Below are positions 1 through 19,940 of a stretch of DNA of 22,707 bases, one piece after another. The notes beneath the pieces were generated by a model. That model had not been told where the DNA came from and made no database searches. It saw only the letters and a list, made by a program, of their open reading frames with translations. The DNA is taken from IMG/VR virus record IMGVR_UViG_3300033388_003690, positions 1 through 22,707 of that record. The stretch is one strand, 5' to 3'. The stretch's first letter is position 1; the number at the start of each line of letters is the position of its first letter. The translations under genes were made by a program, and so were the position numbers. The stretch comes from a virus.

Positions 1-3000
1 CTATTAGTTATAGCTACAGTATCGTCAAAATCAAGAACAGATATACCTTTTACAGGCGCATTAGGATCTCTAGCAACTTCTACAGCTTTTTGATAATCTT
101 TTAGAACTTTTATTTTATCAGCAACTGTTTTGCTGCGCATTACTTTTTTACCAAAAGTACTATCTAGATTCGCAGCGGCTTTTATTTTTAAAGGTAGTAT
201 TTTAGTTTTAAATACTTTAAACTCTGCTTTAGCTTGTTGTAATGTTATTTCACCTGTTAATACCTGCGTAATAAGCTCATTAGCTTTTTGCCCAGCAATA
301 TCAATACCAACTTCAGATTTTATATCTAATTTACCTACAAAGAACTCACCAATAGTCATTTTAGGTTTAATGAGTTTATAAGCAAAAGGGTTCGATGTGT
401 TATTAACACTATATCTAATCCAAGACGCAAGACCTGCTGGTAAAAAATCTAATTTACCTTGTTCTATTAATGGAATAACTGATTCATAATAAACTGGAGG
501 CATAGCTTCATTTAAACCTAGAGGTTTTAAAGCTATATCATCAGGATATCTTAAAGCTCCTTGAGCATAAGATTTTTCTATAATTTTAAATTCAGATTCA
601 ACTTGACCTTTTATAGCTGCGTCTAATAATTGCTTACCAACCTGAACAGCTGGCATCATATGCTCTTCTGTTACTTTAGTAACATCTATTTTACCTGTTA
701 CTGGGTTTATAGGATAAAAAACTGTTGGTGCTAAAAATCTTAACGGATGATTTTGATCAACAGTAGCATCTCTTAAAAATCTTTGAAATGCTGAAGCTGA
801 ATCTGGGTTTTTCTTTATATAAGATTGAATAGATAGAAATAAATCTTTTAATAAATTTAATCTTTTCTGTATTAAACCTGGATCATCAATAAATCTATTT
901 ATTGCTTTTTCATTTAAAATAGAACCAGTTTTACTGTATTTTATTCTACCTAGTGGACCTTTTTTATATTTAGCCGATATAGATGTTCTAAATCTATTTA
1001 CATTTCTAAATGTTAAACCAAAACCACCAGTCATGCCTTTTTCAAATAGATAACCAAATTTAGGATTTATTTTAATAAAGTCATCAATAGTTTCTACAAG
1101 AGTTCTACCTTGTGGCGTTGTTAAATCAAACTCTTTCTTTGGGTTGCCTTGTTTGTTTAAAATATTAGTTTCTACTTTTGTTAAATCAATTGGTTGTACT
1201 ACAAATTGACCTTTCTTAAAGTCTCTTGTAACATCTTGTTTTTGCTTTCTTTTAACTTGAGCTTTTTGTCTAGCACCTTCTGCTGGTGTTTTTTCACCTG
1301 CGGCAACTTGTTGGTCAATAGCTATTTCTATTGCATTTAAAGTTTGAAGTCTAGCTAAAAGTTCCATCCAACCCTTTGAAGCTTGAGCTGTACCTGACCT
1401 TGCGTCTTTTATATTACCCTTAGCATCCATGCCAAATACAGATAAAAAGTAAGGTAGATTTAATTTAGATGGATCTAGTTTATACTGTATCTGATTTTTA
1501 ACTTTATCACCTTTTATATAAAAAGCATCTAATAACTTTTGAGCTAATCTTCTACCTTCGCCACCTATTTTAACTGGACCACGTTTTGTTTGTACAACCT
1601 GTATATCAGCATTACCTTTTATTTGTTTCAACATTGCTAGCATAGCAGGTGCGTTGTTTTTTATAAACATTTGTATAGGTGTTACTTCACCTTTACGTAG
1701 ATTATCTTTAGGATTTAATATACGAGATACAGGTATTCCTAATTCATCAGCTATTTGCTGTGCAGCTGCCTCAGAAAAAGGTTTTAAATCTTTTAAAGTT
1801 ATACCACTTTCTAAATCTATTTCACCAGCTTTAATTTTATCAAGAACATTAGCAACAATTGCTTCTTTGTTAGATTTTTTAAGAACCTTAAAGGCATCAA
1901 CATCTATTTCTTTAACTGGAGTTGTAGTTGTTTCTACTTCTGTTTCAACAACACCCGCATCAACATCACCTAGCTCAGCTGTATCAAAAACAGTATCACT
2001 ATATAACTTACCTTGTTCAAATATAATATCTGCTCTATTACCTAATCTTGTTAAATATGTGGTTACCTTGCCTTTTGATGGATCAAAACCAGATCCTTCT
2101 TCAAAAAGCGGCGTTGTTTTACCTGACCAAGAAGCAATATCACCACCTAACATAAGTTCAATAATAGCTTGTTTTATTCCATTTTCATCTATACCTTTAA
2201 TACCTCTTCTTTCGTAACCAAGTACACCTTTTATTACACCAAAGTTATTTTCAACTAAAGCTTCCGCAGCTGCGTATCTTTCTTTAGGATCTCTTGATTT
2301 TAGTATGTTGACAAAGTCTTCATTAGTATAAATACCTTGATTATATAAATCTATAAAGTTTATACCTTGTGGTGATATAACTTGAGATCTTTTCTTGCCA
2401 GGTGCTGTTATAACAACTTCATCTTGCGTAAAAGCTTCACCTTGCCAAACATCACTATCAACTATTTTGTTTAAAGCATCAACTGATAACTCTTTATTAT
2501 TCCATGCATCAGCTAGTGTTTGGAAAAATTGTAAAGCTCCGTTTGGACCAGAAAAATCCATATTAAAATCTGGTTTATCACCAACTCCTTTTACAGCTTT
2601 ATTTACTCCGTAAGCTAAAACATTCCAAAAAGTTTTATCAGATGCTTTTTGTATATTTATTTTACGAGCTGAAAGTTCTTCTAAAAACTGTATTATAACT
2701 TCATCAGGTCTAGATCTATCAGCTTTAGCCATTATTCTAGTAAACGCCGTGGGTTCATTTTGAGCTAAATAGCTTAGTATACTATTAGCAACATTAGTAA
2801 ATGCTTTAGGATCAACTCCTAATGCTTCTGAGAACAATACATGATTAAACTCATGGAATACAGTTTCACTAGCTCTATTTGCTATTGAGTTTTGTTGTGA
2901 TACAATTACATCGTAAACTAGCTTAGTTTCACCTTTAGCATTTGTAACTTGAGTAACAAGCGTAGTACCATTCATTGTACCATCTTCAATAGCTTCTTTA

Positions 3001-6000
3001 AATTCAGCATACTCTTGATCAGCTTGTTCTTTAGTTAAACTGTTTTTATCATCAGCAACTCTTTTATCTAGCATTTTTTTATACTTAGATAAAACCTTTT
3101 TATTGTCTATACCTAATTCATAGCTTATATCTATACCTTTACCTTTTAAGCTTTGGAATAAAGCTAAACCTTTTTCTATATTAAGTTCAAACCTTTGTGT
3201 TGTGTGAATTTTTTCAGCTTCATCTTGTATTTGTTTGCCTGAAGGATTTTCTATTCCTTTTATTCTAAGACTTGATAAAGCATCAGCTTTTAATTTTTCT
3301 TGTTGTTTTTTAGGTAGAAGATTAAATGTTCTGGTAAATGCAGCGACATATTGATCTCGACCAGCAACTAAGCTTTCGAACTCTGCTCTTAAAGGTTCTA
3401 GTAAAGTTTCTTTTTCAGCTCTAGTTAATTCTGAATTATTATTTATTGTATCAGCTTGAGCTTGTAATGTAGCTAGTCTTTCCATTGCTGCTGAGTAAAT
3501 AGCAAAACCATCTGGATCTATATTTTCTAGCTTTTTATTTTGATCTATAAGTATAGCGTCGTTAGCTTGTTTTAATTCAAGTTGTTGAGCTTTTATTTTA
3601 AGTATTTGCTCAGGTGTTAAAGAACGTTTATAAGGTCTTACACCTGTTTTGTCAGGTTTAAATCTATAGTCATATAAACTTCTTTCAAGTATATTCCACT
3701 TTGCTAAATTATCTTTAAACTCTTGAGTCATTTTAGGTGTTGCCAAAGAGTTAAGTATAGCTCCAGTAATTAAAGGAGCACTGTACATTGTTTTAGCAAA
3801 AATCAAAGACATAAAACCTGCTTCACCTGTACCTTGTAACCAAGGTCTACCATCTATAATGTTTTGACCAACTTGAGTAACAGCTACTTCACCTGCAACA
3901 TCCATTCCAACAAGTCTAACAAACTCAGGAGCGCCAGCTACTCTTCTTCTCCACCAAGAACCTAAACCTGCTTCTAACTTTTCACCACCAACCGTTCCTC
4001 CCCATCTTGATTTTAATGATTTAAATATTTTCCAGGTTGGTAATATACCACCAGCATATTCTAATGTACTAAAACCAAAACCAGCTAAAGACATATCTAT
4101 ATGATCATAAGGTCTACCACCATTTTGCATTTCATTATAACGCTCTCCTTGATACATACCACCAGAACTCATAGAAGCTAACATCATTCCAACATATGGA
4201 TTACCTGTAACTACAGATCCACCTATCATTGTAGCGTAATAAGGAGCTAACTCAATACCTCTATCGAACAAATATTCACCCATGTTGCCAATACTATCAA
4301 AAGCGTTTTCAAATTGAACTGCTTTTTTATATCTTTCAGCTCTTCTTTTTTCGTATTCAATAACAAGGCTTTGAGCTTCAAGAAGTTCTGTTGTTAGCAC
4401 GTTTGGTTTATTATATCGGTCAACCATAGCTTCATCAGAATAATCCATATACATAGGTTGCCATCCACTTGCGAAAGTATCTAGTAAACTTAAAAGCTGC
4501 GTTCCTATACCCATCACGGTTTTAAGAGTAGATGTTGCAAAAGGTGTTGCTCCATCTCCAGTAAAATGCTTTTCTATATAACTATAATTTCTTTTTAACC
4601 AGTCTAACTCATATATATCAGTATTATAATCAGTTGATTTAGATATATATTTTTGATAATCTAATGCTACACCTTGGTATTGCAGTCTTAGCTCCTCCTT
4701 GTTTTCATTAGCAGCTGTTATACGCTTATTCAACAAGGTTATGGTGTTATTATATTGCTCAGCTAGATTAGTCACATTAAAACCATTAGCTTGACCTTCT
4801 TTTATTTGTTCATAAAGATCAACCAACTGTGCTTTATCTTTGTTTATAGCGTTTGTTAAAGCTTCTATTGTACGAGCGGTACCGCTATTTTCAAGTTTTT
4901 TAAATCTAGTTTCAAAATCAAATCTTTCTTTTAACTCTTTTCTACCTAATATATCACCTGTTTCTGGATCAAAATATCTTCTAGGCAGTTTACCACCATA
5001 TAAAACGGAATTATCTTCAATTCTATTATATACATATTGAGCTATTTGTAATCTTTGCTCTTCAGGAAGATTATCTAAATATTCAGTTTTTAGTTTATCA
5101 TGCTCTGCGGTAATTTTATCATTTCTAATGATAGTTCTAGCAAAAGCTTCAACTTCTTTTTGTGTAATAGGTTCTTTACTACCACTCTGCTGTCTATTAT
5201 ATTGTAGTATTTCTCTAGCTCTAGATAACTCTTCTTTGTATGGTTCAATTGTTTGAGTTATTGTTGTTGATGGAGTAATTCCTGTTAGTGAGCTACCACC
5301 GCCACCTGTTACAATTTCTTTTTCAATAGGTTCAAAACTTATAGAATTAGTAAATCTTTCTATTTCTAATTCTTTTTCATAACTTATATCTGTGCTATTT
5401 AAATAATCATCATATTTTTCAGCAACAGATCCTTCATAGTTATCTATTATTTCTATTTTATTACCAGCTTTTCTGTGAGCTTTTAAGTAATCTTCAAAGC
5501 TGTTTATTTTTTTAAAGCCAGTATCTTTATTTTCTATGGCTTTTCTAATTTTTCGAGCACTAACTACCTTATTGTTTACTTTAACTAAAGTTGTATCCTC
5601 TAATATACCGGGTGTTATTACTACTTCATCTAACTTTGATATATTTACAAGTTCGTCATTTTCTATAACATAAGTACCACCATCACCTTTTATACCATGT
5701 AAGTCTTCAGCTGGTAAATCGGGAGGATCTGGCGGTATAGGATTTTCAATATCAAAATCATCTACATTAAAATCAGGATTACCTATACCTAGTTTTTGAG
5801 CAATAACAGCCGATCTTAAAGGATCATCTTCAGCGCTGCTAAACTCTTTAGCGTTTAAAGGTTTTGAGTAAAAAATAGGTTCACCATTAGCATTTAATTG
5901 CATTTTATAAGAACCAGAGCCAATGTTATACTCTTTGTCTAGTTCAGGCATATTAGTAGCAGCAGCAATACCTCTAGTCTCCTCAGAAAAAGCTTCTAAA

Positions 6001-6353
6001 TTAAATATTATATCACCATCTCTAGTGGTGAAATAAGAATCCGATAAAGTATTTTCCGAAAGTGATTCCGTATCTTTTTTGTCTGACTCCACAACTGGAA
6101 TCGCATCTGCAGAGTCTTTTTCTTTTTTTGCGTCTTCGTTTACTTTAATAGCTCTTTTTTTAGAGTCTTCGCTATTAAAAGCGTCAGGGTTTAAATCACC
6201 GCTACCATCTTCTTTAAAGTAGCTAGGTTTTTTATCTTCTTCTTTTTTTAAAGGCTGATTAGCTTGTTTCCACTCTTTAACTTTAGCTTTAATTTCTTCT
6301 TTACCTAAACCTTGCTCTTGAAGTGAAGCAACATATTGTTGAAGTTCGTTCAT
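1..6353 (-). CDS. Giant polyvalent virion/ejection protein (partial, C-terminus beyond window)
   Basis: The frame is open from ATG at 6353 to the left edge, giving at least 2117 residues with no stop. The start lies 5 bases after the stop of the upstream gene and has the local AT-rich context (TTAAATG). Residues 1-150 are charged and Lys/Glu/Asp-rich. Gly/Ala-rich hydrophobic stretches near 702-732 and 843-870 could contact membrane. A helical, coiled-coil-like section covers about 880-1110. HEFNH at 1167-1171 is a zinc-metallopeptidase HExxH site, with Glu1176 close behind. Residues about 1345-1445 resemble sigma-70 regions 1.2-2 (LVENN..VIKG, then FDPSKG and TTYLTR). DFDDT at 2108-2112 is HAD motif I at the window edge. 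Position and size fit a T7 gp16-like internal protein ejected into the host. That role is inferred; the motifs are seen. I recall similar giant proteins from uncultured marine phages. I found no obvious transglycosylase motif. Confidence 0.8.
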   Translation of the reverse strand, partial: MNELQQYVASLQEQGLGKEEIKAKVKEWKQANQPLKKEEDKKPSYFKEDGSGDLNPDAFNSEDSKKRAIKVNEDAKKEKDSADAIPVVESDKKDTESLSENTLSDSYFTTRDGDIIFNLEAFSEETRGIAAATNMPELDKEYNIGSGSYKMQLNANGEPIFYSKPLNAKEFSSAEDDPLRSAVIAQKLGIGNPDFNVDDFDIENPIPPDPPDLPAEDLHGIKGDGGTYVIENDELVNISKLDEVVITPGILEDTTLVKVNNKVVSARKIRKAIENKDTGFKKINSFEDYLKAHRKAGNKIEIIDNYEGSVAEKYDDYLNSTDISYEKELEIERFTNSISFEPIEKEIVTGGGGSSLTGITPSTTITQTIEPYKEELSRAREILQYNRQQSGSKEPITQKEVEAFARTIIRNDKITAEHDKLKTEYLDNLPEEQRLQIAQYVYNRIEDNSVLYGGKLPRRYFDPETGDILGRKELKERFDFETRFKKLENSGTARTIEALTNAINKDKAQLVDLYEQIKEGQANGFNVTNLAEQYNNTITLLNKRITAANENKEELRLQYQGVALDYQKYISKSTDYNTDIYELDWLKRNYSYIEKHFTGDGATPFATSTLKTVMGIGTQLLSLLDTFASGWQPMYMDYSDEAMVDRYNKPNVLTTELLEAQSLVIEYEKRRAERYKKAVQFENAFDSIGNMGEYLFDRGIELAPYYATMIGGSVVTGNPYVGMMLASMSSGGMYQGERYNEMQNGGRPYDHIDMSLAGFGFSTLEYAGGILPTWKIFKSLKSRWGGTVGGEKLEAGLGSWWRRRVAGAPEFVRLVGMDVAGEVAVTQVGQNIIDGRPWLQGTGEAGFMSLIFAKTMYSAPLITGAILNSLATPKMTQEFKDNLAKWNILERSLYDYRFKPDKTGVRPYKRSLTPEQILKIKAQQLELKQANDAILIDQNKKLENIDPDGFAIYSAAMERLATLQAQADTINNNSELTRAEKETLLEPLRAEFESLVAGRDQYVAAFTRTFNLLPKKQQEKLKADALSSLRIKGIENPSGKQIQDEAEKIHTTQRFELNIEKGLALFQSLKGKGIDISYELGIDNKKVLSKYKKMLDKRVADDKNSLTKEQADQEYAEFKEAIEDGTMNGTTLVTQVTNAKGETKLVYDVIVSQQNSIANRASETVFHEFNHVLFSEALGVDPKAFTNVANSILSYLAQNEPTAFTRIMAKADRSRPDEVIIQFLEELSARKINIQKASDKTFWNVLAYGVNKAVKGVGDKPDFNMDFSGPNGALQFFQTLADAWNNKELSVDALNKIVDSDVWQGEAFTQDEVVITAPGKKRSQVISPQGINFIDLYNQGIYTNEDFVNILKSRDPKERYAAAEALVENNFGVIKGVLGYERRGIKGIDENGIKQAIIELMLGGDIASWSGKTTPLFEEGSGFDPSKGKVTTYLTRLGNRADIIFEQGKLYSDTVFDTAELGDVDAGVVETEVETTTTPVKEIDVDAFKVLKKSNKEAIVANVLDKIKAGEIDLESGITLKDLKPFSEAAAQQIADELGIPVSRILNPKDNLRKGEVTPIQMFIKNNAPAMLAMLKQIKGNADIQVVQTKRGPVKIGGEGRRLAQKLLDAFYIKGDKVKNQIQYKLDPSKLNLPYFLSVFGMDAKGNIKDARSGTAQASKGWMELLARLQTLNAIEIAIDQQVAAGEKTPAEGARQKAQVKRKQKQDVTRDFKKGQFVVQPIDLTKVETNILNKQGNPKKEFDLTTPQGRTLVETIDDFIKINPKFGYLFEKGMTGGFGLTFRNVNRFRTSISAKYKKGPLGRIKYSKTGSILNEKAINRFIDDPGLIQKRLNLLKDLFLSIQSYIKKNPDSASAFQRFLRDATVDQNHPLRFLAPTVFYPINPVTGKIDVTKVTEEHMMPAVQVGKQLLDAAIKGQVESEFKIIEKSYAQGALRYPDDIALKPLGLNEAMPPVYYESVIPLIEQGKLDFLPAGLASWIRYSVNNTSNPFAYKLIKPKMTIGEFFVGKLDIKSEVGIDIAGQKANELITQVLTGEITLQQAKAEFKVFKTKILPLKIKAAANLDSTFGKKVMRSKTVADKIKVLKDYQKAVEVARDPNAPVKGISVLDFDDTVAITN

Positions 6354-7469: not shown

Positions 7470-8129
7470 TTAGTTTGATAATGCTGCTCCGGTTATATTA
7501 GTTAAACCACCTACCATACCAGTAATAGCTGATGTTTCATCTGCTCTTGCTTGAGCTTCAGCAGCAGCAGCTCCAGATATTTGAGATGAAATACGATCCA
7601 ACTGCTGTTGTTCTCTTCTTTCTCTTTGATTAAAAACAAATTGTTTACCAGCTACATCTGCTTGTTGTAATCTTGCTTGCTCTCCTACTAGTTGCTGATT
7701 TAATGTAGCTTCACCTTGAGCTCTAGCTCTTTCATTAGATGCTTCTTGTTGTTCTATACTAGCTGCAACACCTTGCTTACTTCTTAATGCTGCTTGAGCT
7801 AAAGCTGTGGCTCCACCGGCGCTAGCACCTGTGGCTCTCATAGTATCCAGCGTATTAGCTAGAGATATATCAGCTTCTTGTATTTTCATTTCAGCAGCCT
7901 GAGTAGCAACACCTAAATTAGCAAAAGGATTACTCATCATACTGCTTAAGTCAACTACACCAGCATATGGATTTATAATCTCTTGTCTATTTCTTTCAAG
8001 CTCAGTTAACTTAGCTTCAAGTTTAGCTTTTAAGGCCGCTGCTTTTCTCGCTGCTTTTTTTGCCTTACCGGCTCCAAATATACCAGAACCTATACTTAGT
8101 AGGCCGCCACCTACAGCTACATAACTCAT
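7470..8129 (-). CDS. T7 gp14-like internal virion (DNA ejection) protein
   Basis: This 219-residue protein opens with a Gly-rich hydrophobic stretch (VAVGGGLLSIGSGIFGAG, about residues 4-21), followed by a basic, Ala/Lys-rich helix (about 22-48) and an INPYAGV motif at 51-57. The rest is an Ala/Gln/Arg-rich, probably coiled-coil body to about residue 205, ending in a second Gly/Ala hydrophobic tail. This layout and size resemble T7 gp14 (about 196 residues) and related short ejection proteins of podoviruses, which insert in the host envelope at infection. Its ATG overlaps the stop of the cupin-like gene in an ATGA (8126-8129), implying translational coupling. The assignment is from composition and context and is moderately sure; a generic virion coiled-coil protein is the alternative. 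Confidence 0.7.
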   Translation of the reverse strand: MSYVAVGGGLLSIGSGIFGAGKAKKAARKAAALKAKLEAKLTELERNRQEIINPYAGVVDLSSMMSNPFANLGVATQAAEMKIQEADISLANTLDTMRATGASAGGATALAQAALRSKQGVAASIEQQEASNERARAQGEATLNQQLVGEQARLQQADVAGKQFVFNQRERREQQQLDRISSQISGAAAAEAQARADETSAITGMVGGLTNITGAALSN

Positions 8130-8587
8130 ATTTTATCTATTTTTTGTTTGTTTTCAAGTTGTAAATAATATTCATCATATGTATTAACAACATTATTTTT
8201 TTCTAATTTTTCAATATTTTTTTCATTTGAGGGATTAGCAAAAACATTAGTAAATATACACTCTTCTAGTGCATATACAGCTCTTTTAATACCTGGTCTT
8301 GATATTATAGTTTTTGGAGCTTCTATTGTTTGTCTTCCGTTTTCTTCATCTACTATTATCATTTTGCCTTTTAATAAAAAGCTTACATGTTCATGTAGAT
8401 GTATTTTCCCAATAGCAAAAATACCTTTTGGTATTGTTATTTCTCTTATATGCATGCCATCTGCGAAAGAGTTTTTAACAGGGCAGTTATCTGTGTCATT
8501 GAAAAACACAGAACCCTCAGGTAAATCGCGTAAACTCTCTTCAAAACTAACAATATTATTTCTTAGTTTCTTAGCTATTTTATTCAT
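8126..8587 (-). CDS. Cupin-fold small phage protein
   Basis: This is a 153-residue protein. Residues about 45-117 read as a single cupin barrel: HIREITIPKGIFAIGKIH, then HLHEH at 63-67, a turn Gly74, and a second motif with PG at 98-99 before KRAVYALEECIFTNVF. The His cluster (H63, H65, H67) could bind a metal, but the second-motif His is missing, so the site is incomplete. The ending 'PGIKRAVYA' after a 'GKIH.H.H' block is a pattern I recall from phage cupins that lie near head or tail genes. Its function there is unsettled: structural decoration or small-molecule/metal binding are options. It overlaps the next gene by 4 bases. The C-terminal 30 residues are charged and helical. Confidence 0.72.
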   Translation of the reverse strand: MNKIAKKLRNNIVSFEESLRDLPEGSVFFNDTDNCPVKNSFADGMHIREITIPKGIFAIGKIHLHEHVSFLLKGKMIIVDEENGRQTIEAPKTIISRPGIKRAVYALEECIFTNVFANPSNEKNIEKLEKNNVVNTYDEYYLQLENKQKIDKI

Positions 8588-18458: not shown

Positions 18459-19940
18459 TTATACTCCTTTGAATAATACAAAGTTGTTAGCAGCTTGTGT
18501 TACTAAACATCTTTCTGATAGGAAGTTAACTTCCATAGCATCTAGAGTTGAAGTAAACGCACCACCAGCAGAACCAGTCAACCAAGACTTCATACGTCTG
18601 TCGTCAGCTTGAGAAGCTCTATAGCGAACATGTAAGAAAGGTCTACGGATGTTAGTTCCTAAGATTTGATCGTAAACTGTAGAAGTTCCAGCTGGTACTA
18701 ATACACCTTCGATTGAATTTACTCCGTCGATAGCACCTCTTGTAGAAGCATCGTTTAAGTATTTCCAATCAGTTTTGTAGAAGTCATAAGAACCTCTTCT
18801 GAATCCAGAGAATCCAAGATTAAGAGCCATTTCTTCTGAGTTTTCGAATAAACCGAAAGCAGTACCACCAGCGAATCCACCAGAAATACCAGCTAACATG
18901 TCATCAAAATCAAGAGAAGTTTGTCTCTGTAAGAAAAGCATGTTTTCTTCAATAGCACCTTGAGTATCTAAGTTTTTAAGAATAGCGTCAAATTCATCTA
19001 GTCCATTAGCAGCAGTAAATCCAGACTGTACATTACCTCTTGTAGTAATAGCAGCGAAAAGACCTTCTGAACCTGGATTAACACCAGCAGTAGCAGCAAC
19101 TTGGTTGTACTCAGCTTCTACCATAGACATTTCTAAATAATCTTCAAATCTTAATCTTGTTTCAGACTCAGCTTTTAAATACCATAGGTATCCAGAAGTT
19201 CCATCTTCAGTAGCAACTTCAACCCAACCGATTTGCGCCATATCAGAACCATTAACTACGTATTGGTTTCTTAGGATAATTGGTGAGTTAGAATACTGAG
19301 TAAAACTTGGATCTACAGAAACTCTTGCTTGGTTTTGTCCACCAGCAGCAAAAGCACCGTCCATGCTTTGTCCTTTTTGGTAGTCAGAACCATAAACAAA
19401 GATTTTTAATCCTGTAGCACTTAAACCAATAGCAGGAGCTGCACCAAATAAATCAAGATCAGAAAATCCTTGAACATTGATTACTTGAGCACCTAAAGCA
19501 GAACCAGCATAAGCACCAGAGTCAGTTACAATACCTTTAGCTTCTAGCCCTGTAGCAGGATCAAGAATAACAATAGTATCATTAATAGAGATCACATTGT
19601 TTACGCCGCCAGGTAAAGTTAAGTCAGCAGTTGTTCCTGCAGCATTAGCTCCAGCTACGCCGTCGTATGCAATATGTAATCTGTTTTGCTCAGACCAAAT
19701 TACTTGATCAGATGTCATTGGCATTTCAGCGCCAACCATTCGCAAGAATCCAGATAACGTTCTGTTTCCATAACGCTCTACTTCTTGTTCATAAACCTCT
19801 GGTAGGTACTGTTGAGCGAATGAATCGCCGCCATTACCAGGTCCAGCAGGACCACCAGCGTTAAATTGTAGGTAGTTACTATTCAATAACTCTTGTGTTT
19901 GAGATGGAATAATACTACCAAATTGAGGAATTAAACTCAT
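18459..19940 (-). CDS. Major capsid protein
   Basis: This 493-residue protein forms the icosahedral shell, probably with the HK97 fold used by tailed phages. The N-terminal arm is Gly/Asn/Gln-rich (QFNAGGPAGPGNGGDSF). It is followed by YLPEVYEQEVERYGNRTLSG and FLRMVGAEMPMTSDQVIWSE (about 46-86), a block I recall from capsid proteins of crAss-like and marine podoviruses. The middle is beta-rich and Gly/Ala-rich. The C-terminal third has FDDMLAGISGGFAGGTAFGL and a RPFLHVRYRASQ strand. The gene uses C-ending codons (AAC, TTC, TAC) more than its neighbours, fitting very high expression, and is followed by a hairpin. It lies 15 bases after the scaffold-like gene, the usual order. I saw no separate protease gene and no cleavage site. 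Confidence 0.88.
   Translation of the reverse strand: MSLIPQFGSIIPSQTQELLNSNYLQFNAGGPAGPGNGGDSFAQQYLPEVYEQEVERYGNRTLSGFLRMVGAEMPMTSDQVIWSEQNRLHIAYDGVAGANAAGTTADLTLPGGVNNVISINDTIVILDPATGLEAKGIVTDSGAYAGSALGAQVINVQGFSDLDLFGAAPAIGLSATGLKIFVYGSDYQKGQSMDGAFAAGGQNQARVSVDPSFTQYSNSPIILRNQYVVNGSDMAQIGWVEVATEDGTSGYLWYLKAESETRLRFEDYLEMSMVEAEYNQVAATAGVNPGSEGLFAAITTRGNVQSGFTAANGLDEFDAILKNLDTQGAIEENMLFLQRQTSLDFDDMLAGISGGFAGGTAFGLFENSEEMALNLGFSGFRRGSYDFYKTDWKYLNDASTRGAIDGVNSIEGVLVPAGTSTVYDQILGTNIRRPFLHVRYRASQADDRRMKSWLTGSAGGAFTSTLDAMEVNFLSERCLVTQAANNFVLFKGV

Follow-up and report, generated by a model that had tools for sequence, protein, structure and literature searches.

A probable diverged sigma-70-like module embedded in the giant protein of a flavobacterial podovirus

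Does a giant phage protein carry a piece related to bacterial sigma factors, and could such a piece reach the host together with the genome? The question is raised by a virus-derived stretch of 22,707 nucleotides (IMG/VR record IMGVR_UViG_3300033388_003690; hereafter the window), in which the original prediction, made by eye from the letters, placed a stretch resembling sigma-70 regions 1.2-2 inside a virion protein. Comparison with profiles, relatives and predicted structures indicates that this stretch is probably a diverged sigma-like module, and we lean towards its homology to sigma factors in some form.

The giant protein and the conserved stretch

The giant open reading frame (ORF) closes a run of structural genes belonging to PHROG "virion structural protein" families, and its full-length relatives comprise 2944-3009 residues (Table 1). 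The probable major capsid protein of the window matches 85 phage records, whose named hosts are Flavobacterium, Cellulophaga or Maribacter, and the gene order matches that of Cellulophaga phage phi38:1 (Pervagoviridae); the window was therefore assigned to a flavobacterial podovirus clade of the Pervagoviridae type. The source phage is described as marine. The syntenic protein of phi38:1, gp101, is annotated as a structural protein; compared to the giant protein it is shorter (1691 residues) and lacks both the sigma-like and the helix-turn-helix (HTH) modules. The place of the gene and the annotation of relatives make it probable that the giant protein is part of the virion. It is very large, multidomain and encoded beside virion genes, as polyvalent proteins are, and is probably a polyvalent giant protein of this clade. 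A zincin-type motif precedes the sigma-like stretch, with the form HExxH in 10 of the 13 aligned rows and HExxxH in L004, L014 and L015; a Pfam search of the giant protein returned no peptidase match. The HAD/polynucleotide-kinase-like part continues past the end of the window. The word WSGKTT was considered as a Walker A motif and rejected, since only L004 has the A/G that such a motif requires five residues ahead of GK. A separate protein of 153 residues within the structural module (window 8126-8587), kept in relatives, looks cupin-like by eye and has no Pfam match.

Table 1. Coordinates of the features discussed, in the window unless another contig is named
Feature	Position	Strand	Residues	Remarks
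Giant protein ORF	6353..3	minus		2117 aa in the window, truncated at the end of the contig
Sigma-70 region 1.2-2.4-like module (probable)	2004..2372	minus	about 1328-1450	HMM-HMM match and conservation
Region 1.2-like helix FVNILKSR	2292..2315	minus	1347-1354	
Region 2.1-like long helix ERYAAAEALVENNFGVIKGVLGY	2214..2282	minus	1358-1380	helix in both models
Region 2.2-like helix NGIKQAIIELML	2148..2183	minus	1391-1402	
Family-specific, nearly invariant insert GGDIASWSGKTTPLFEEGSG	2088..2147	minus	1403-1422	alignments
Region 2.3/2.4-like segment FDPSKGKVTTYLTRLGNRADIIFEQGKL	2004..2087	minus	1423-1450	
HTH-like segment, sigma region 3/4-like, FSEAAAQQIADELGIPVSRILNP	1710..1778	minus	1526-1548	
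Zincin-type metallopeptidase motif HEFNH, conserved FLEEL downstream	2841..2855	minus	1167-1171	
DFDDT motif, start of HAD/polynucleotide-kinase-like part	18..32	minus	2108-2112	
Structural protein, probable major capsid protein	18459..19940	minus		PHROG 13704, E 6e-89
Conventional standalone sigma	L169:4465-5226 (G305)			253 aa; Pfam r2 E 3e-4, PHROG 351 E 6e-19
Early-promoter-like motif, 7 near-identical copies	G305 696, 59859, 60170, 60369, 60805, 61428, 62473			early arm
Early-promoter-like motif, 6 copies	G310 2819, 3132, 3447, 4112, 5115, 5898			all upstream of the G310 sigma gene

The minus-strand ORF contains, exactly as quoted, the words of the original prediction (FVNILKSR, ERYAAAEALVENNFGVIKGVLGY and, from residue 1423, FDPSKGKVTTYLTRLGNRA). 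The place was correct, although the unit is slightly larger than first drawn, and two of its features had been missed, namely the insert and the HTH-like segment downstream. Homologous giant proteins are divided over the stretch: it is conserved in 10 IMG/VR relatives, kept by every relative that covers the region, but the whole module is absent from the giant proteins of the cultured relatives phi38:1, Panino, elemoD and ctfjg026, as expected for exchangeable polyvalent-protein cargo. The family consensus reads ..DLVxIVR..YAAAEAxVExNFGxIKGxxGYERRGxKGxxxxGIKQAIIELIxGGDIAxWSGKTTPLFEEGEG(Y/F)NPxxxVTTYLxRLxNRxxIIFERAKDLGD, of which the insert GGDIASWSGKTTPLFEEGEG is the best-kept part. Four pairs gave dN/dS values of about 0.06-0.36, which indicates strong purifying selection on the module. 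No relatives of the module were found in GTDB genomes or INPHARED, and scans of the remaining IMG/VR records yielded no more distant members. Matches in Erythrobacter phage L02 (E 1), Vibrio LV6 and Pseudoalteromonas PH357 look like chance and were discarded as relatives.

Two further observations concern the integrity of the gene in relatives. In L012 and L025 the giant ORF is interrupted right after TLKDLKPF, near residue 1524; L177, from the contig of L012/L025, still matches beyond the break, indicating a frameshift that is either real or assembly-derived. In the HTH block (residues 1515-1690), the distant members L004 and L005 are far closer to each other than otherwise close pairs are, a pattern that suggests recombination within the giant gene.

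Profile and structural comparison with sigma factors

Pfam, PHROGs and NCBIfam searched with the window protein (E <= 10) gave no sigma match, and neither did Pfam searched with eight aligned members or a search of PDB sequences; Sigma70_r2 and other sigma family models do not recognise the module. We built a profile of sigma regions 1.2-2.4 from E. coli, phage and GTDB sigma factors and compared it by hhalign with the family alignment, which is shallow (Neff 1.7). The comparison gave a probability of 20% (P 0.0011, score 24.9) over 72 collinear columns that span regions 1.2-2.3 in the biologically right register, with ERYAAAEALVENNFGVIKGVLGY aligned to LVEANLRLVISIAKKY of RpoD and FDPSKGKVTTYLTRLGNRADIIFEQGKL to the region 2.3 stretch of RpoD, where an ECF-only sigma profile matches too. 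An earlier comparison with a seven-sequence sigma profile had given a probability of 2% in another register, and is superseded by the larger profile.

Several controls bear on this score. Among 100 segments tiling the giant alignment, the four highest scores all fall at the module (top 24.9), followed by 21.4 in an adjoining segment and then 18.0, a result that is only partly independent because the stretch had been picked by eye from the same sequence. Column shuffles never reach 24.9 (0/200; maximum 21.2), and decoy profiles of FtsX and of RpoH regions 3-4 score at most 12.9. An unfiltered sigma HMM run over 12 giant proteins (E <= 100) produced eight matches, all weak and all in the module; the domain of the window itself scores 4.9 bits, a value reached by 5 of 1000 residue shuffles. 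When sigma groups are taken separately, the module is matched in a consistent register by the sub-profiles of primary, ECF and phage sigmas, and not by those of RpoH and FliA. The proposed likeness to sigma factors is partly supported, by a collinear HMM-HMM match above chance with its best place exactly at the stretch, but it is weak, at a probability of 20% and without a library-level sigma match.

Scanned along the giant protein, the sigma region 3 and region 4 profiles score highest at the HTH-like segment directly downstream of the module, in matches of 18-26 columns. A direct comparison gave probabilities of 44% and 43%, respectively, over 18-23 columns (0/200 shuffles each), but HTH matches of such lengths are generic. 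The same segment shows a weak match to LPD22 (PF18834), which at E 0.06-0.13 was not accepted as its identity, and no sigma-like stretch was seen in the other LPD22 proteins examined.

AlphaFold2 models of 181 and 371 residues, computed from nine sequences, have low confidence (mean pLDDT of 58.7 and 68.0, respectively). At this confidence the helices are ordered as regions 1.2, 2.1, 2.2 and 2.3/2.4, and the insert GGDIASWSGKTTPLFEEGSG is a low-confidence loop in both models. Foldseek returned no match at E <= 0.001 with either model; for the 181-residue model, two SigA chains come in at ranks 2 and 14 of 350,542 without significance, and for the 371-residue model no sigma chains lie near the top. 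A BFVD fold search gave nothing significant. The sigma order of elements claimed at the outset is followed by the helices of these low-confidence models, with an insert of about 20 residues interrupting it between the 2.2- and 2.3-like helices.

Compared to the sigma-70 family (PF04542; RpoD, RpoS, ECF and phage sigmas), the module is alike in the order and approximate lengths of its predicted helices, in the LVExNF word at the 2.1-like position, in FDP-(V/F)xTY at the 2.3-like position and in the HTH-like segment downstream. It differs in falling below every family cut-off, in being embedded in a protein of about 2960 residues, and in the invariant insert GGDIASWSGKTTPLFEEG, which sigma factors do not have. 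In place of a continuous region 2.2 helix, the binder of the beta' clamp, the low-confidence model has a 13-residue helix followed by the insert. Primary sigmas have a WW dyad that is missing here, the sequence being VTTYLTRLGNR in the window and VTT(Y/F)(L/I)xRLxxR in relatives, whereas the aromatic of STY is kept across the family; ECF sigmas also lack WW. We do not file the module as a member of the sigma-70 family, because several defining features that were tested are absent from it.

A standalone sigma and an early motif in relatives

The relative G305, whose overlapping ends mark it as a complete circularised genome of 63 kb, encodes one conventional sigma in a divergently transcribed replication arm. 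Similar genes lie at G307:38452-39204 and G310:10076-10840, and their products are 82% identical between contigs; against INPHARED this sigma has no match at E <= 1e-3. In this phage group the module would thus stand beside a conventional sigma. A relation between the two was considered and set aside, as their pairwise profile score is 12. The DxDGD motif was not found in G305, and a search of it for a T7-type RNA polymerase gave zero matches, with the controls of that search silent too. The same genome encodes a GroEL-like chaperonin (L171:11654-13210; Cpn60 E 3e-55), and GroEL/GroES genes are also present in related flavobacterial phages.

An early-promoter-like motif, TACAAACAAAATA-N9-ACAGATAATATAA, recurs with fixed spacing, and all copies are on the early-gene strand; in G305 the seven copies are placed upstream of the arm encoding the standalone sigma. 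Copies are often followed by an ATG at a distance of 0-12 bases, pointing to very short leaders. On the other contigs, including the window, either the early arm is not covered or no copies were seen. The motif contains a TATAAT-like block and, in a promoter scan, is unlike TAnnTTTG, the Bacteroidota promoter type of these hosts. Unless the gene of the standalone sigma is also transcribed from its own promoter, its position downstream of the motif calls for a reader made beforehand, which could be injected or be the sigma of the host. The arrangement is compatible with a sigma-like module acting early, and is not proof of it; these promoters might instead be read by host sigma or by the standalone sigma of the phage. 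For late genes, the motif search turned up only TGTAAAAACCTCA, visible on reading the sequences and common to two leaders of G305 (near 47992-48061 and 59586-59860, minus strand) upstream of two late genes; it is a possible late-promoter element.

Possible roles of the module and known systems

Starting from the conserved module, its best sigma-profile match, and the promoter motif and standalone sigma gene of the relatives, we consider the most likely reading, at a probability of roughly 0.36, to be a strongly diverged sigma-70-like module, made of a 1.2-2 part and a region 3/4-like HTH, that sits in an injected polyvalent protein and acts on host polymerase at early promoters. The giant protein would probably be packaged and ejected with the genome. 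Perhaps cut loose by the zincin domain of the same protein, the sigma-like part would engage host RNA polymerase and direct it to the dedicated early promoters ahead of the synthesis of the standalone phage sigma. A virion-delivered sigma function of the module is plausible as a hypothesis. The most far-reaching reading, a virion-delivered sigma factor that, injected as part of the giant protein, would program host RNA polymerase for a dedicated set of early promoters ahead of all phage gene expression, appears rather doubtful.

Next in likelihood, and a serious competitor, is chance resemblance of helical sequence, in which an unrelated all-alpha domain of a polyvalent protein happens to be followed by a generic HTH. 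The 20% profile probability from so shallow an alignment, the absence of both a library match and a significant fold match, and the shortness of the HTH match all speak for it; that the module is the best sigma-profile place in the whole giant protein, at a score none of 200 column shuffles reaches, and that independent sigma subgroups give a common register, speak against it. The module may also be sigma-derived but repurposed, with the insert as its working part, for example as a binder or inhibitor of the polymerase clamp or as a DNA-binding part of ejection, without promoter reading. We regard this as unlikely: conservation peaks in the insert WSGKTTPLFEEGEG and not in the residues that sigma factors use in promoter melting, and a conventional sigma is separately encoded in the phage group, which both favour repurposing, but the dedicated early promoters upstream of that sigma would still need a reader. 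Very improbable, finally, is a giant protein that serves purely as a structural or ejection scaffold, its module having no role in transcription and host sigma-A reading the early motif. Such a scaffold would agree with the last place of the gene in the structural operon, the structural annotation of the phi38:1 counterpart and the TATAAT-like block, yet it sits poorly with the departure of the motif from the Bacteroidota type and with the strong purifying selection on the module.

Injection of entire RNA polymerases, or of enzymes that modify polymerase, is known from phages, and a search of the open-access literature found no report of an injected promoter-specificity (sigma) factor. If the preferred reading of a diverged, injected sigma-like module is true, an injected specificity factor would be a third way of starting phage transcription. 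The idea can be tested directly, since the complete relative provides a candidate virion factor and a later, separate sigma along with a defined early-promoter motif.

The giant protein resembles the polyvalent phage proteins (Iyer et al. 2017, PMC5512222), which are likewise giant, multidomain and encoded near virion genes, and has, as they do, an HExxH zincin-type motif (in most of the aligned rows), a HAD/kinase-like part and a weak LPD22 match. The word "sigma" does not occur in the text of PMC5512222, and the module is not among the domains described there. Virion RNA polymerases, such as gp50 of coliphage N4 and the tape-measure-fused RNA polymerase of Thermus phage P23-45 (PMC10770324), also place transcription machinery in a giant virion protein; here, by contrast, no polymerase was detected, and a specificity-factor-like piece would need the polymerase of the host. 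Phage sigmas, as in the phiEco32-like phages (PMC8948821; PHROG 351), redirect host polymerase, and the relatives studied here encode such a gene. Unlike the module, those sigmas are separate small proteins expressed after infection.
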